A DNA stretch of 37,495 nt from Deltaproteobacteria bacterium. Its GTDB lineage: Bacteria; Myxococcota_A; UBA9042; PHBI01. How positions within the stretch are numbered: the stretch's first letter is position 1; every line of letters starts with the position of its first letter. The stretch spans positions 1 through 37,495 of the forward strand of contig SBGO01000531.1 of assembly GCA_006226565.1 (NCBI GenBank), written 5' to 3'. Shown here piece after piece: positions 25,471 to 36,723 of the stretch. The translations under genes and the position numbers were made by a program. Below the pieces are notes generated by a model. It was not told the DNA's origin. It did no database searches and saw nothing but the letters and a program-made list of their open reading frames with translations.

Positions 25471-30324
<4,854 letters not shown>

Positions 30325-30555: not shown

Positions 30556-30600
30556 GAAAGTGTGATGAGGTGGGGTCTGACCCCAACTTTTCACACTTTC
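30556..30600. repeat. REP-like nested palindrome
   Basis: Outer arms GAAAGTGTGA (30556-30565) and TCACACTTTC (30591-30600) are perfect 10-bp complements. Inside them TGGGGTC/GACCCCA forms a 7-bp perfect stem around one T. The GGGGTCTGACCCC core is like the extragenic palindromes mobilised by REP-associated tyrosine (Y1, IS200-like) transposases. No transposase is in the window. Confidence 0.6.
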
Positions 30601-30619: not shown

Positions 30620-30659
30620 GAGTCAAAGTGACTTTTTCTTGCAAGGGTCATCTTGACTC
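30620..30659. repeat. Second imperfect inverted repeat beside the REP-like element
   Basis: GAGTCAAAGTGAC (30620-30632) and GTCATCTTGACTC (30647-30659) are complementary at 11 of 13 positions, with a T-rich 14-base loop. It lies about 65 bases before the hydrolase ATG and could be a second part of a composite REP element, or an operator for the cassette. Confidence 0.5.
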
Positions 30660-30723: not shown

Positions 30724-31527
30724 ATGAACCAGATCCACCTCGTCGTCATCGACCCGCAGAACGACTTCTGCCGCCCGGACGGCGCCCTCTCCGTCCCCGG
30801 CGCCGACCGCGACATGGACCGCCTGGCGCTGATGGTCCACCGCATGAAGGACAAGCTCGCCGACATCCACGTGACCCTCGACAGCCACCGCGCCGTCGAC
30901 ATCAGTCACCCGGTCTGGTTCCGCGACCGCGACGGCAACCACCCCGCGCCCTTCACGCAGATCACCGCCTCGGACCTCCGCGACGGCGTCTGGGTCCCGA
31001 CGCTCCCCTCGACCCACGCGCGCACCCTCGACTACCTCGACGCCCTCGCCGCCAGCGGCCGCTACCCGCACATCATCTGGCCCGAGCACTGCCTCATCGG
31101 CGGCGAGGGGCACAACGTCGTCCCCGACCTCTTCGACGCCTTCAACGAGTGGTCCCAGCGCTTCGCCCTCGTCGACTTCATCACCAAGGGCTCCAACCCC
31201 TTCACCGAGCACTTCTCGGCGCTCCGGGCCGAGGTCCCCGACCCCGGCGACCCGGGCACCCAGCTCAACGCCGGGCTCCTGACCACCCTCGAGGAGGCCG
31301 ACGTCATCCTGCTCGCCGGCGAGGCGGGCTCGCACTGCCTCGCCAACACCGTCCGCGACATCGCCGAGGCGTTCCGCGACCCGGCCTACATCCGGAAGAT
31401 GGTGCTGCTCACCGACGCCACCTCCCCGGTCCCCGGCTTCGAGGCCTACCAGGACGCCTTCATCCGCGACATGACCCGCGCCGGGATGCAGCTCTCCACC
31501 ACCCAGGACGTGCTCGCGACGCTCTGA
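30724..31527 (+). CDS. Nicotinamidase-like cysteine hydrolase
   Basis: ATG 30724 follows GAAGGAG; the track's start at 30514 lies inside the REP-like element. 267 residues of the isochorismatase/nicotinamidase fold with the complete catalytic set: Asp10 in VIDPQNDF, Lys155 in FITKGSNPF and nucleophile Cys205 in GEAGSHCLANTVRD. The zinc-site residues of PncA are also present (Asp53, His55, His62 in LDSHRAVDISH), as is a WPEHC segment. A PncA-type reaction, nicotinamide to nicotinate plus ammonia, is therefore chemically plausible, but the protein is longer than PncA (~210) and has insertions, so another amide may be the substrate. It is first in a cassette with a vWA protein (50 bases on) and a kinase-like protein. 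Confidence 0.9.
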   Translation: MNQIHLVVIDPQNDFCRPDGALSVPGADRDMDRLALMVHRMKDKLADIHVTLDSHRAVDISHPVWFRDRDGNHPAPFTQITASDLRDGVWVPTLPSTHARTLDYLDALAASGRYPHIIWPEHCLIGGEGHNVVPDLFDAFNEWSQRFALVDFITKGSNPFTEHFSALRAEVPDPGDPGTQLNAGLLTTLEEADVILLAGEAGSHCLANTVRDIAEAFRDPAYIRKMVLLTDATSPVPGFEAYQDAFIRDMTRAGMQLSTTQDVLATL

Positions 31528-31577
31528 CGCGCGCCCACGCCCCCCCACTCCCCCGCCTTCCCCCAAGGAGCCACGAC

Positions 31578-32324
31578 ATGCCTATCCTCGACCCCAACAA
31601 GTCCATGACCCTCCACACCGTCACCGGCTCGCGCTACGGCTTCTCGGCCACCCGCGTCGACCAGCTCGGCGCCTCGGAGTGGACGCTGGTCGCCATCGTC
31701 TGCGACGTCAGCGGCAGCGTCGGCGCCTTCCAGAAGGAGATGGAGGCCGCCATCCAGTCCATCGTCGAGGCCTGCCGCCTCTCCCCGCGGGCCGACCACC
31801 TGATGCTCCGCACCGTCGCCTTCGACGACCGCGTCCGCGAGGTGCACGGCTTCAAGCCGCTCTCCGACTGCCACCCCAAGGACTACGACGGCGCCCTCGC
31901 CATCGGCGGCACGACCGCCCTCTACGACGCCGCCCACAACGCCGTCGCCGCCACCGTCCAGTACGGCTCCACGCTGGCCAAGCGCGGCATGGCCGTCAAC
32001 GCCATCCTCTTCGTCATCACCGACGGCGGCGACAACGCCTCGACGGTCGACGCCGGCGCGGTCAAGCACGCCATCGCCCACGCGGTGAAGAGCGAGGCCC
32101 TCGAGTCGGTCCAGACGATGCTCATCGGGGTCGACGTCGACACCTCCGGGGTCGGCGCCTACCTGATGGACTTCTCGGCCAAGGCCGGCTTCGACCACTA
32201 CCTCGGGCTCGCCGACGCCACGCCCCGCACCCTGGCCGGGCTGGCGGACTTCGTCTCCCAGAGCATCGCCGCGCAGTCGATGTACCTGGGGACGGGCCTG
32301 TCCGCGACCCTCGGGAGCATCTGA
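31578..32324 (+). CDS. vWA-domain protein with intact MIDAS
   Basis: ATG 31578 after AAGGAG; the 391-residue track ORF overlaps the hydrolase and is an artefact. 248 residues, almost entirely one von Willebrand factor A domain: a short lead (MPILDPNKSM), then the metal-ion-dependent adhesion site DVSGS (Asp43, Ser45, Ser47), Thr112/113 in GGTTALYDA and Asp149 in VITDGGDN. No signal peptide or transmembrane helix, so it is cytoplasmic, like TerY and other vWA partners of kinases in bacterial stress-response operons. The kinase-like gene starts one base after its stop. It probably acts as a divalent-metal-dependent scaffold or as a substrate of the kinase; this is inferred from context. Confidence 0.92.
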   Translation: MPILDPNKSMTLHTVTGSRYGFSATRVDQLGASEWTLVAIVCDVSGSVGAFQKEMEAAIQSIVEACRLSPRADHLMLRTVAFDDRVREVHGFKPLSDCHPKDYDGALAIGGTTALYDAAHNAVAATVQYGSTLAKRGMAVNAILFVITDGGDNASTVDAGAVKHAIAHAVKSEALESVQTMLIGVDVDTSGVGAYLMDFSAKAGFDHYLGLADATPRTLAGLADFVSQSIAAQSMYLGTGLSATLGSI

Positions 32325-32325
32325 G

Positions 32326-33642
32326 ATGGCCCCGCGGGTGCTCCTCGACGACGGCCGCGCGGTGGCGCTCTCGCCGCGCGACTTCGTGGCCAAGGGCGGC
32401 GAGGGCAGCGTCTACGCCAGGGACGGCGTCGCCTTCAAGCTCTACCACGACCCGGCGCGCGCCCTGACGCCGGCCCGCCTCGCGGCGCTGTCGGCCCTGG
32501 ACCACCCGCGGATCCTGCGCCCCGAGGGGCTCCTCCATGACGACGACGGCCAGGTGGTCGGCTTCCACACCCGCTTCGTGCCCGACACCTGGCCGCTCTG
32601 CCGCCTCTTCGCCCGGAGCTTCCGCGAGCGCTACCACATCGACGACCGCGCCGTGCTGGCGCTGCTGCTCGAGATGCTCCACGTCGTCGACCACGCCCAC
32701 GACCGCAGCCTCCAGATCGTCGACCTGAACCCCCTCAACGTCCTGGTCGCGGCCGACGGGCGCACGCCCTACTTCATCGACGTCGACAGCTGGCAGGCCC
32801 CCGGCTTCCCGGCGACCGCCATCATGGACAGCGTCCGCGACCGCCACGCCGCCCCCGGCGTCTTCGACGACGCGACCGACTGGTTCGCCTTCGCCGTGGT
32901 CGCCTTCCAGCTCCTCGTCGGGGTCCACCCCTACCGCGGCGGGCACCCGGTGAAGGGGCTCGACGCGCGCATGACGCAGAACATCTCGGCGCTCCGCCCG
33001 GAGGTCGTGCTCCCGCCGAGCGCCGCCGACCCGCGCGGCCTCGGGGCGCCGCTCCTGCGCTGGTTCGACGCCGTGCTCGAGCGCGGCGAGCGCCGGCCCC
33101 CCGACCGGATCGCCCTGGTGACGATGTGCCCGATGCCGCCGCGGTCGGTGGCCCCGGGCTCCCCCTACGAGGCCGCGATGCGCGACGGGCAGCTCCGCCT
33201 GCGCGACGCCACGACGCACGACGAGGTGCCCCTCACCCTGACGGCGTCGGCCTTCGCGTGGCACCAGGGGCGCCTCTACGCGCTCAGCGGCGACGCCATC
33301 GTCGAGGTGACCCTCCGGACGCTGGGCGGGCGGACCTTCGCGACGACCCGGGTCGTCAGCCAGGTGCTCCCCCACGCGACCACCCTCTACCCAGGGGTCG
33401 CGCTCCAGGACGCCCTCGGCGCGGTCTACGCCTCCCTCTTCCCCGCCCCGGGCGTCTGCCATCAGATCCGCGTGCCGGATCTCGACGGCCGGCGGATCGC
33501 CGACGCCAGCTTCACGGACCGGACCCTGACGGTGCTCGTCGCCCGGGTCGACGGGCGCTTCGACCGCCTCCGCTTCCGCTTCGACCGCGCGCTCCGGACC
33601 TTCGCGAGCGACGCCGAGCGGGACGTCGAGCCCACGCCCTGA
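32326..33642 (+). CDS. Divergent protein-kinase-like protein with unknown C-terminal domain
   Basis: 438 residues; ATG is one base after the vWA stop and is preceded by GGGAG. Kinase features: glycine loop GGEGSVY (24-30), Lys38 in AFKLYHD, a catalytic loop VDLNPLNVLV with Asp133 and Asn138, and FIDVDSW at the DFG position (Asp152). The HRD His/Arg are replaced (IVDLNP), and the activation segment QAPGFPATAIMDSVRDRHA is unlike standard Ser/Thr kinases but resembles those partnered with vWA and PP2C proteins. The lobe after the helical core ends near residue 275. Residues ~285-438 form a beta-rich region (LRLRDATTHDEVPLTL...) that I do not recognise, possibly a sensor. No transmembrane helix. 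It should be the effector or signalling arm of the cassette. Confidence 0.85.
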   Translation: MAPRVLLDDGRAVALSPRDFVAKGGEGSVYARDGVAFKLYHDPARALTPARLAALSALDHPRILRPEGLLHDDDGQVVGFHTRFVPDTWPLCRLFARSFRERYHIDDRAVLALLLEMLHVVDHAHDRSLQIVDLNPLNVLVAADGRTPYFIDVDSWQAPGFPATAIMDSVRDRHAAPGVFDDATDWFAFAVVAFQLLVGVHPYRGGHPVKGLDARMTQNISALRPEVVLPPSAADPRGLGAPLLRWFDAVLERGERRPPDRIALVTMCPMPPRSVAPGSPYEAAMRDGQLRLRDATTHDEVPLTLTASAFAWHQGRLYALSGDAIVEVTLRTLGGRTFATTRVVSQVLPHATTLYPGVALQDALGAVYASLFPAPGVCHQIRVPDLDGRRIADASFTDRTLTVLVARVDGRFDRLRFRFDRALRTFASDAERDVEPTP

Positions 33643-34464: not shown

Positions 34465-36723
34465 ATGAATCGCACGCTGACGCTGCTCGCCGGCTCGCTC
34501 CTCGTCGCCGCCTGCGCCGACGACCCCGCCGGGCCCCAGCTCGCGCCGCTCGTGGTCGAGGACCTCGCGGCCGAGGTCGACCCGATGATCGGCACCGGCG
34601 GCTCGGGCAACGTCATCCCGGGCGCGCTGCTGCCCTACGGGATGGTGCGCGCGAGCCCCGCCGGCGTCGGCGAGCACGGCCGCATCGCCGCCTATCGCTA
34701 CGGCGACACCGCGCTCCGCGGCTTCACGCACACCCACCTCCAGGGCCCGGGCGGCTCGGCGAACGGCTACAACGAGCTCCTCGTCACGCCCTTCACCGCC
34801 ACGCCCGACGACGCCTTCGTCGCGACCCACACCTCGGGCTTCGACCACGCCACCGAGCGCGCCGAGCCGGGCTACTACGCCGTGACGCTGGCGGACGCCG
34901 GGGTCGACGTCGAGCTCACCGCCACCGCCCACGCCGCCGTCCACCGCTACACCTACCCGACCGGCGCGCGCGGGCGGCTCCTGGTCGACCTCGGCGTGGC
35001 CATGGGCGCCGCGAAGGACGCGCACCTCGAGCAGGTCGACGCCCACACCCTGCGCGGCTGGGCCCGCTACGACGAGCACCCGGCGCTCTCCTTCATCCTC
35101 CAGGGCGAGCCGACGGGGGAGGCCATCCTCTACTTCGCGCTCACCGTCGACCGCGACGCGGACGAGGTCGGCTTCTTCCGCCGCGGCTACGTCAACGAGG
35201 AGGCCGACGGCGAGATCGACGGCGCCGACATCGGCGCCTGGCTCGGCTTCGACCCCGGCGACGCCCCGGTGACCGTGCGGGTCGGCCTCTCCTTCATCGA
35301 CATGGCGCAGGCGCGGACCCACCTCGACGCCGAGGTGGGCGAGCGCTCCTTCGACGAGGTGCGGGCCGCGGCGCGGGCGACCTGGAACGAGGCGCTGAGC
35401 CGCGTGAAGGTCCGCGGCGGCACGGCGAGCGAGCGGCGCGTCTTCTACACCGCGCTCTACCACAGCCTCTTCCAGCCGGCGGACTACACCGAGGTCGGCG
35501 GGCGCTTCCACTCGGCGACCGACGGCGAGCACCACGTCCACGACGCCGGCGCGCGCCGCTTCTACACCGACGACTGGTGCATGTGGGACACCTACCGGAC
35601 GACCCACCCCCTCGGCACCCTCGTCGCGCCCGAGCGCCGCAGCGACATGGTCTGGTCGATGCTCCACGCCTACGAGGAGGGCGGGTGGCTGCCGAAGTGC
35701 ACCTGGCACGCGACCGGCTACTCGCGCGTGATGACCGGCAACCCGGCCGTCGCCATCATCGCCGACGCCTACGTGAAGGGGCTCCGGGACTTCGACGACG
35801 CGCTCGCCTGGGAGGCCGTCGACAAGGCGGGGCAGCAGGACATCGCCAACATCGCCGAGGACCAGCTCTGCGGCTACCTGAACCTCGGGACGGTGCCGGA
35901 CTACCTCACGCTCGGCTACGTCCCCGCGGCGTGCGACCCCGACCAGGCGGCGTCGATGACCCTCGAGTACGCCTACGACGACTGGGCGACGGCGCGCTTC
36001 GCCGAGGCGCGCGGCGACCTCGAGGCGGCCGGGCGCTACGACGCGCGGGCGCAGAACTGGCGCAACCAGTGGAACCCCGAGACCGGCTTCATGCAGGCGC
36101 GGGCCGCCGACGGGAGCTGGGTCGAGCCCTTCGACCCCGACGGCTACGCCAAGTACTTCGTCGAGTCGACGGCGCGCATCTTCTCGTTCTTCGTCCCCCA
36201 CGACGTGCCGGGGATGATCGACGTGATGGGCGGCGCCGAGGCGACGACGGCGCGCCTCGACGCGTTCTTCGACGGCGGCTACCTCGACATCTCGAACGAG
36301 CCGAGCTTCCACGTCCCGTGGCTCTACGGCCGGACGGGCGAGCCGGACAAGACGCGGGCGCGGGTGCGGGAGATCCTGGCGACCGACTTCTCCGACGCGC
36401 CGGACGGGCTGCCGGGCAACGACGACTCCGGGGCGACCTCGGCGTGGTACGTGCTGGCGGCGCTCGGCGTCTACCCGATCGCCCCGGGGGACGGCGTCTG
36501 GGACCTGACGGTGCCGCGCTTCGAGACCGCGGAGCTGTGGATCGCCGACCTCGACGACCCGACGGTCGGGCACACGGTCGTTATCGAGGCGCCGCGGCCC
36601 CCGTCGGGGGAGGAGACGCTGCGCGGGATCACCCTCGACGGCGTGGTGCTCGACGCGCCGCGGGTCGACCACGCGGCGCTCCTCGGAGCGAAGACGCTGC
36701 GCTTCGAGCTCGGCGCCGAGTGA
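34465..36723 (+). CDS. GH92-family glycosidase lipoprotein (alpha-mannosidase type)
   Basis: 752 residues, ATG 34465 after GGGGA. Lipoprotein signal with lipobox LVAAC. The mature protein has the GH92 signature at its N-terminus, AEVDPMIGTGGSGNVIPGALLPYGMVRASP, then GFTHTHLQGPGG, YHSLFQPADYTEVGGRFHS, DDWCMWDTYRTTHPL and near the end PGNDDSGATSAWYVLAALGVYPIAPGDGVWDL with Asp653/654. GH92 enzymes are calcium-dependent, inverting exo-acting alpha-mannosidases that release mannose from N-glycans or yeast mannan. The length is typical. There are no sugar transporters or other glycosidases in the window, so it stands alone. It is surface-anchored, as expected for a predator or degrader of polymers. 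Its stop is 3 bases from the stop of the convergent U32-like gene. Confidence 0.93.
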   Translation: MNRTLTLLAGSLLVAACADDPAGPQLAPLVVEDLAAEVDPMIGTGGSGNVIPGALLPYGMVRASPAGVGEHGRIAAYRYGDTALRGFTHTHLQGPGGSANGYNELLVTPFTATPDDAFVATHTSGFDHATERAEPGYYAVTLADAGVDVELTATAHAAVHRYTYPTGARGRLLVDLGVAMGAAKDAHLEQVDAHTLRGWARYDEHPALSFILQGEPTGEAILYFALTVDRDADEVGFFRRGYVNEEADGEIDGADIGAWLGFDPGDAPVTVRVGLSFIDMAQARTHLDAEVGERSFDEVRAAARATWNEALSRVKVRGGTASERRVFYTALYHSLFQPADYTEVGGRFHSATDGEHHVHDAGARRFYTDDWCMWDTYRTTHPLGTLVAPERRSDMVWSMLHAYEEGGWLPKCTWHATGYSRVMTGNPAVAIIADAYVKGLRDFDDALAWEAVDKAGQQDIANIAEDQLCGYLNLGTVPDYLTLGYVPAACDPDQAASMTLEYAYDDWATARFAEARGDLEAAGRYDARAQNWRNQWNPETGFMQARAADGSWVEPFDPDGYAKYFVESTARIFSFFVPHDVPGMIDVMGGAEATTARLDAFFDGGYLDISNEPSFHVPWLYGRTGEPDKTRARVREILATDFSDAPDGLPGNDDSGATSAWYVLAALGVYPIAPGDGVWDLTVPRFETAELWIADLDDPTVGHTVVIEAPRPPSGEETLRGITLDGVVLDAPRVDHAALLGAKTLRFELGAE

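Follow-up and report, generated by a model that had tools for sequence, protein, structure and literature searches.

A nicotinamidase-like hydrolase genomically tied to a putative TerY-P-type phosphorylation switch in bacteria and very large phages

Why should a nicotinamidase-like hydrolase be encoded next to a vWA-domain protein and a divergent protein kinase? The question is raised by a 37,495-nt stretch of contig SBGO01000531.1 from a Deltaproteobacteria bacterium (GCA_006226565.1), hereafter called the window, in which the genes HYD, VWA, and KIN adjoin one another (Table 1). As proposed in a first-pass annotation of this DNA, they form a compact cassette of three intact ORFs, all on the plus strand, and their active-site residues are conserved in nearly all relatives. 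HYD and VWA are 50 bp apart, and a single base separates the VWA stop codon (32322–32324) from the KIN ATG (32326), just as had been noted before. The REP-like element reported upstream is real: the palindrome TGGGGTCTGACCCCA at 30571 has 62 copies in the genome, as against 0 for a control pattern, and no special link to the cassette. Its copies are often paired, approximately 50–70 bp apart. After KIN, where a hairpin had been described, a GC-rich inverted repeat is present; searches for terminator-like and sigma-70-like sites at the cassette gave none. On its minus strand the window encodes a 1617-aa protein (25471–30324) that combines a PQQ-like propeller with 13 metal-binding motifs of the MopE type; on the plus strand, an enzyme of glycosyl hydrolase family 92 (34465–36723) follows the cassette. 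Between the gene for this enzyme and KIN lies a 211-aa lipoprotein-like ORF to which no family was assigned.

Table 1. Features of the cassette and its upstream region in the window.
Feature	Position	Strand	Basis
HYD: nicotinamidase-like cysteine hydrolase, 267 aa	30724..31527	+	Pfam, PDB profiles, AlphaFold/Foldseek, invariant catalytic residues
VWA: vWA-domain protein, complete MIDAS, 248 aa	31578..32324	+	Pfam VWA, conserved MIDAS, HYD adjacency
KIN: TerY-P/YegI-type protein kinase, all-beta C-terminal domain, 438 aa	32326..33642	+	YegI profile, kinase fold, catalytic residues
REP-like repeat TGGGGTCTGACCCCA, not cassette-specific	30571..30585		62 genome copies vs control pattern 0
Operator-like inverted repeat AGTCAaagTGACT, upstream of HYD	30621..30633		Sequence; putative NrtR link
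Second operator-like inverted repeat GGTCAtctTGACT	30646..30658		Sequence; similar palindromes 5' of some relatives' operons, weakly enriched

HYD scores 28.6 bits against the Pfam Isochorismatase family (cut-off 27) and fails the NCBI nicotinamidase equivalog model NF008623 (34 bits, cut-off 174). All PDB matches to a family profile built from 31 relatives were nicotinamidases or their relatives (yeast Pnc1 2h0r, 1.6e-13; 2wt9; 3pl1), and Foldseek with the AlphaFold model (pLDDT 96) also placed nicotinamidases first (Acinetobacter 2wta, E 7.4e-15; Pnc1 3v8e, 1.1e-13), biuret hydrolases ranking clearly below them among the matches. The complete Asp10/Lys155/Cys205 set and the PncA-like metal ligands claimed from the first reading are all there, namely the catalytic residues D10, K155, and C205 and the metal-type ligands D53, H55, H62, and H122. 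Across 178 homologues from cells and viruses, K155, C205, W119, and H122 occur in 178/178 and D10 in every row without a gap at that position; D10, D53, and H55 are conserved in essentially all of them, and H62 is substituted in a few distant members. The pocket-type residues F15 and W119 are likewise conserved in the family. We take D10, D53, H55, W119, H122, K155, and C205 to correspond to D8, D49, H51, W68, H71, K96, and C138 of Mycobacterium tuberculosis PncA, and F15 to its pocket residue F13. HYD thus has the D-K-C residues, the metal ligands, and the fold in common with PncA and Pnc1 of the isochorismatase superfamily, whereas it differs from them by a long insertion that accompanies a length 50–90 aa above that of PncA, by its identity of only ~20% to solved nicotinamidases, and by its coupling to a kinase module. 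Being longer than PncA and outside the equivalog model, it represents a distinct subfamily; its function as a nicotinamidase, with nicotinamide as the probable substrate, is well supported by residue patterns and the predicted structure. In one locus (L059:5759–7768) a HYD-type domain is fused with a zinc alcohol dehydrogenase domain in a single 669-aa ORF, with NrtR and an NAPRT-like gene nearby.

The same length, together with a score so far under the equivalog cut-off, means that the substrate could differ. The amide that HYD hydrolyzes might be a different one (ureidocarbamate, maleamate, or biuret type), in which case the cassette would be a stress-signaling unit unrelated to NAD, a reading that is also compatible with the long insertion and with the PncA already present in the source genome. 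We regard this as improbable, since nicotinamidases precede biuret hydrolases in both the Foldseek and the PDB profile searches, the family retains the D53/H55/H62/H122 ligands together with F15 and W119 of the pocket type, and the link to NAD-gene neighbors described below is strong in cells and, independently, in viruses. The source genome encodes an ordinary PncA (C742) as well as NAPRT with NadE (C763) elsewhere, so HYD is a second nicotinamidase-like enzyme there. That HYD itself is merely the housekeeping PncA can be dismissed, as the two are separate genes on separate contigs; no ordinary PncA match was found in 11 of the 16 Myxococcota genomes with HYD, nearly all with the triad.

The two remaining genes resemble the components of a phosphorylation switch. 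VWA matches the Pfam VWA family (8.6e-5) with 23.3 bits, just under the cut-off of 23.8; its relation to E. coli YegL shows only in a profile alignment (1.7e-7) and is weaker than the matches of KIN and PP2C to their E. coli counterparts given below. Its MIDAS residues are D43, S45, S47, T113, and D149, conserved in 93 homologues with S45 at times replaced by T; the earlier list was right for four of these, but the conserved threonine is T113 and not T112. KIN, a divergent kinase, does not reach the Pfam Pkinase cut-off. Its motifs are intact (G-loop GGEG; K38; DLNxxN with D133 and N138; IDVDS with D152), the catalytic Lys and Asp are conserved across its relatives, and AlphaFold and Foldseek predict a protein kinase fold followed by an all-beta domain. 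The C terminus is shorter than in the closest relatives (438 aa versus 545–580 aa). We asked whether KIN might be truncated or frameshifted and rejected this, as the C-terminal ends of the relatives match nothing downstream of the stop in the window. The all-beta C-terminal domain of the window KIN shows neither the CxxC...CPxC motif nor the zinc ribbon or OB fold of TerY-P kinases; such motifs were seen in distant KIN relatives.

The TerY-P triad consists of a vWA protein, a PP2C phosphatase, and a kinase with a C-terminal zinc ribbon, and is hypothesized to be a metal-sensing phospho-switch (PMC11090510). The comparison with this system drawn in the first-pass annotation was correct, the KIN-family profile matching E. 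coli YegI at 1.3e-29 and the PP2C profile of the relatives matching PphC at 9.5e-12. Like TerY-P and YegI-PphC-YegL, the HYD-family loci combine a MIDAS vWA protein, a YegI-type kinase (DxNxxN, IDxDS) and, mostly, a PP2C in one operon. They are unlike these systems in that the nicotinamidase is a constant fourth member and that NrtR and NAD genes surround them. The copy in the window departs further from the TerY-P triad, having neither PP2C nor the kinase zinc ribbon. PP2C is also absent from the nearest relatives (L034–L041) and is found in other bacteria and in phages; with NrtR not adjacent either, the window holds a reduced version of the cassette.

If the three genes belong together, they should also be neighbors elsewhere. 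Neighborhoods were derived with a purpose-written gene caller (pooled training for high-GC loci) and iterated profiles, and family labels come from these profiles; NAPRT (nicotinate phosphoribosyltransferase) was assigned by TIGR01513, PP2C by PF13672, and NrtR by its NUDIX and NrtR_WHD domains, the NrtR NCBI model being the best match but remaining below its cut-off. A recurrent neighbor of ~240 aa, provisionally called PPX, was at first a candidate for PP2C; it is actually NrtR, and PP2C is a separate gene. At E < 1e-20, HYD relatives occur in 32 of 284 Myxococcota genomes. The nearest ones have the order HYD-VWA-KIN-NrtR (L035, L036, L038–L041) and more distant Myxococcota PP2C-KIN-HYD-VWA, which in one locus (L062) is accompanied by NrtR and by NAPRT, the latter transcribed divergently from the operon. 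A scan of 85,462 genomes yielded at least 577 HYD relatives, of which the best 80, a list that favors sequences close to the window, were inspected. Among these 80, loci from at least five phyla show HYD-VWA-PP2C-KIN operons, the hosts including Acidobacteria, Bacteroidales, Agitococcus, Nannocystaceae and other delta-proteobacteria, a MAG labeled Lokiarchaeota, and five Patescibacteria loci (Moraniibacteriota, Parcubacteria, Niyogibacteria, and Lloydbacteria); NrtR often lies directly upstream, and in a few loci KIN was not found or lies past the contig end. The Bradyrhizobium operon is apparently a prophage, an identical HYD being present in two IMG/VR contigs (L230, L240). Beta-proteobacteria have HYD-NAPRT instead, in several cases also with a glutamine NadE and NrtR; seven loci (L091, L103, L115, L122, L128, L140, L155) carry such a HYD-NAPRT-NadE-NrtR operon without the kinase switch.

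VWA lies beside or near HYD in 31 of 110 cellular loci, and the other 79 have no triad; the enzyme can thus do without the switch. The reverse search, with the window VWA against Myxococcota at E < 1e-9, found VWA genes in 13 genomes, in 12 of which they adjoin HYD, while the contig of the 13th ends 90 bases away from it. By chance, the two gene sets would overlap to this extent with P = 6e-12, a value that serves only as a guide because the genomes are related. This asymmetry is informative: HYD can exist without the switch, whereas VWA proteins of this type are almost never encountered without HYD. The adjacency on which the cassette idea depended therefore holds beyond the window, the pair together with KIN also recurring in distant phyla and, as shown below, in most viral lineages. 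The first annotation had further suspected a role in NAD metabolism, which gains strong support from the NrtR, NAPRT, and NadE genes beside HYD in relatives; its option of NAD depletion is so far unsupported, as the linked genes make NAD and do not destroy it.

NrtR is an NAD repressor that senses ADP-ribose. The loci of HYD relatives share NrtR, NAPRT, and a nicotinamidase-type enzyme with NrtR-controlled NAD salvage operons, but add the vWA/kinase/PP2C switch, and NrtR is not adjacent to the operon in the window; an NrtR-like gene lies on another contig (C754). Two GTCA-N3-TGAC palindromes, AGTCAaagTGACT and GGTCAtctTGACT, precede HYD in the window, and similar palindromes are found 5' of some relatives' HYD operons. 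The pattern GKGTC-N5-GACMC is weakly enriched upstream of HYD operons (4/106 exact versus 2/606). As a genome-wide NrtR site, RGTCANNNTGACY was rejected: most of its 55 sites read GGTCA-N3-TGACC, those inspected were not clearly linked to NAD genes, and the NrtR and NAPRT genes of this genome have no such site upstream.

The cassette is also widespread in viruses. Three assembled phage genomes of 462–595 kb contain HYD with VWA beside or near it plus PP2C, and two of them KIN. In IMG/VR, a metagenomic set in which some entries are proviruses, 127 contigs, many of 200–620 kb, encode HYD relatives. PHROG 2, presumably the large terminase, was matched in 11 of 15 viral records tested, in some weakly. 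Grouping 83 viral loci (including the three phage records) at 95% HYD identity gave 68 lineages, of which 55 contain HYD, VWA, PP2C, and KIN within one stretch of at most 17 kb; NAPRT is also present in 18, and NrtR in 15. Two types of NAD synthetase, a NadD-like adenylyltransferase, and NADAR recur among the viral neighbors. Some of the large phage contigs (L177, L178, L179, L182–L261) even have the whole deamidating route of HYD, NAPRT, NadD-like, and NadE, with NrtR, beside the switch genes, and in several of them NADAR is nearby. A FastTree phylogeny of HYD required 22 virus/cell changes, an exact number that is uncertain, which points to frequent exchange. Tpt1/KptA, Thg1, RNA ligase, and NAD-dependent DNA ligase, which are NAD-using or RNA-repair genes, also recur near the phage cassettes (L179:103–663; L253:3087–3908; L208:13019–14161; L260:6007–7842).

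What might the cassette do? On balance we favor, with moderate confidence based on sequence comparisons and structural models, an enzyme of nicotinamide salvage under the control of a TerY-P-like phospho-switch. From the gene content, conservation, folds, and linkage to NAD genes described above we infer the substrate of HYD, the phosphorylation target, and the trigger. HYD would feed nicotinamide into the Preiss–Handler route (nicotinamide to nicotinate, NaMN, NaAD, and NAD). VWA and KIN, with PP2C in most relatives, would constitute a switch of the TerY-P/YegI-PphC-YegL type genomically tied to HYD, and it is gene linkage alone that suggests its action on NAD salvage. The VWA protein could provide a Mg-dependent scaffold; KIN and the phosphatase might set the phosphorylation of the VWA protein, HYD, or salvage partners, turning NAD rebuilding up upon NAD breakdown, with NAD loss or metal state as the putative trigger. 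In the relatives, NrtR would add ADP-ribose-responsive transcriptional control. The HYD set is found again in distantly related bacteria and in dozens of phages of very large size, so that phosphorylation-controlled rebuilding of NAD appears to be common to cells and their viruses.

Two further interpretations concern phages. NADase immune effectors would release nicotinamide and ADP-ribose, and the cassette could be an anti-immunity or anti-stress system moving between phages and bacteria that rebuilds NAD from this nicotinamide under the phospho-switch. The many large viral contigs, the whole-route loci with NADAR nearby, the virus/cell changes on the HYD tree, and the known phage NAD salvage by NadV/NadM (PMC9503650) would agree with such a role. 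We nevertheless consider it a tentative possibility, because the NrtR and NAPRT neighbors in bacteria fit ordinary NAD homeostasis and phages may simply need NAD for the NAD-dependent DNA ligase and Tpt1 encoded near the cassette. The most far-reaching version, a portable phosphorylation-switched Preiss–Handler system built around the HYD subfamily, repeatedly exchanged between bacteria and huge phages and protecting its carrier against immune NADases, is about equally tentative. Host defense against phages is a less probable function still, despite TerY-P-like kinase, PP2C, and vWA modules having been reported as stand-alone anti-phage systems in work cited by PMC11090510. In PADLOC, the cassette matched no specific defense model, TerY-P included, and showed only weak generic kinase similarity; no obvious toxin or nuclease partner accompanies it, its flanks in the window encode secreted proteins and a glycosidase rather than a defense island, and phages themselves carry it widely. 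Such frequent phage carriage argues at least as much for counter-defense or metabolism as for host defense.

We found no description of a nicotinamidase combined with a vWA protein and a YegI-type kinase in the open-licence papers searched, where absence is not proof. Enzymes for rebuilding NAD from nicotinamide are known from large phages, namely NadV with NadM or NadR and the NARP pathways (PMC9503650), and in this respect such phages resemble the HYD phage loci. Unlike the NadV route, however, the latter have a deamidating route plus a phospho-switch, and thereby point to a phage NAD route of nicotinamidase, NAPRT, NadD, and NadE beyond the one in that survey. The ARG-centered anti-ADP-ribosylation systems (PMC9503650) share with HYD relatives a neighborhood of an NrtR-like regulator and a vWA protein, but are built around an ADP-ribosylglycohydrolase, and neither a nicotinamidase nor a YegI-type kinase has been described in them. 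If the favored salvage function is true, bacterial NAD salvage would be under post-translational control. The HYD loci tie a TerY-P-type switch to one defined, easily assayed enzyme, so that what such switches control becomes directly testable; to our knowledge, these kinase/phosphatase/vWA switches are widespread and their substrates largely unknown.

Two individual loci deserve mention. In a Variovorax plasmid record (L181), an NrtR-type regulator is divergent from HYD-VWA, and a macro-domain gene, a nucleoside 2-deoxyribosyltransferase-domain gene, and an NAD kinase are nearby. In Vibrio vulnificus (L180), a divergent HYD relative lies near RNA ligase family, potassium channel, and TerD-family genes.
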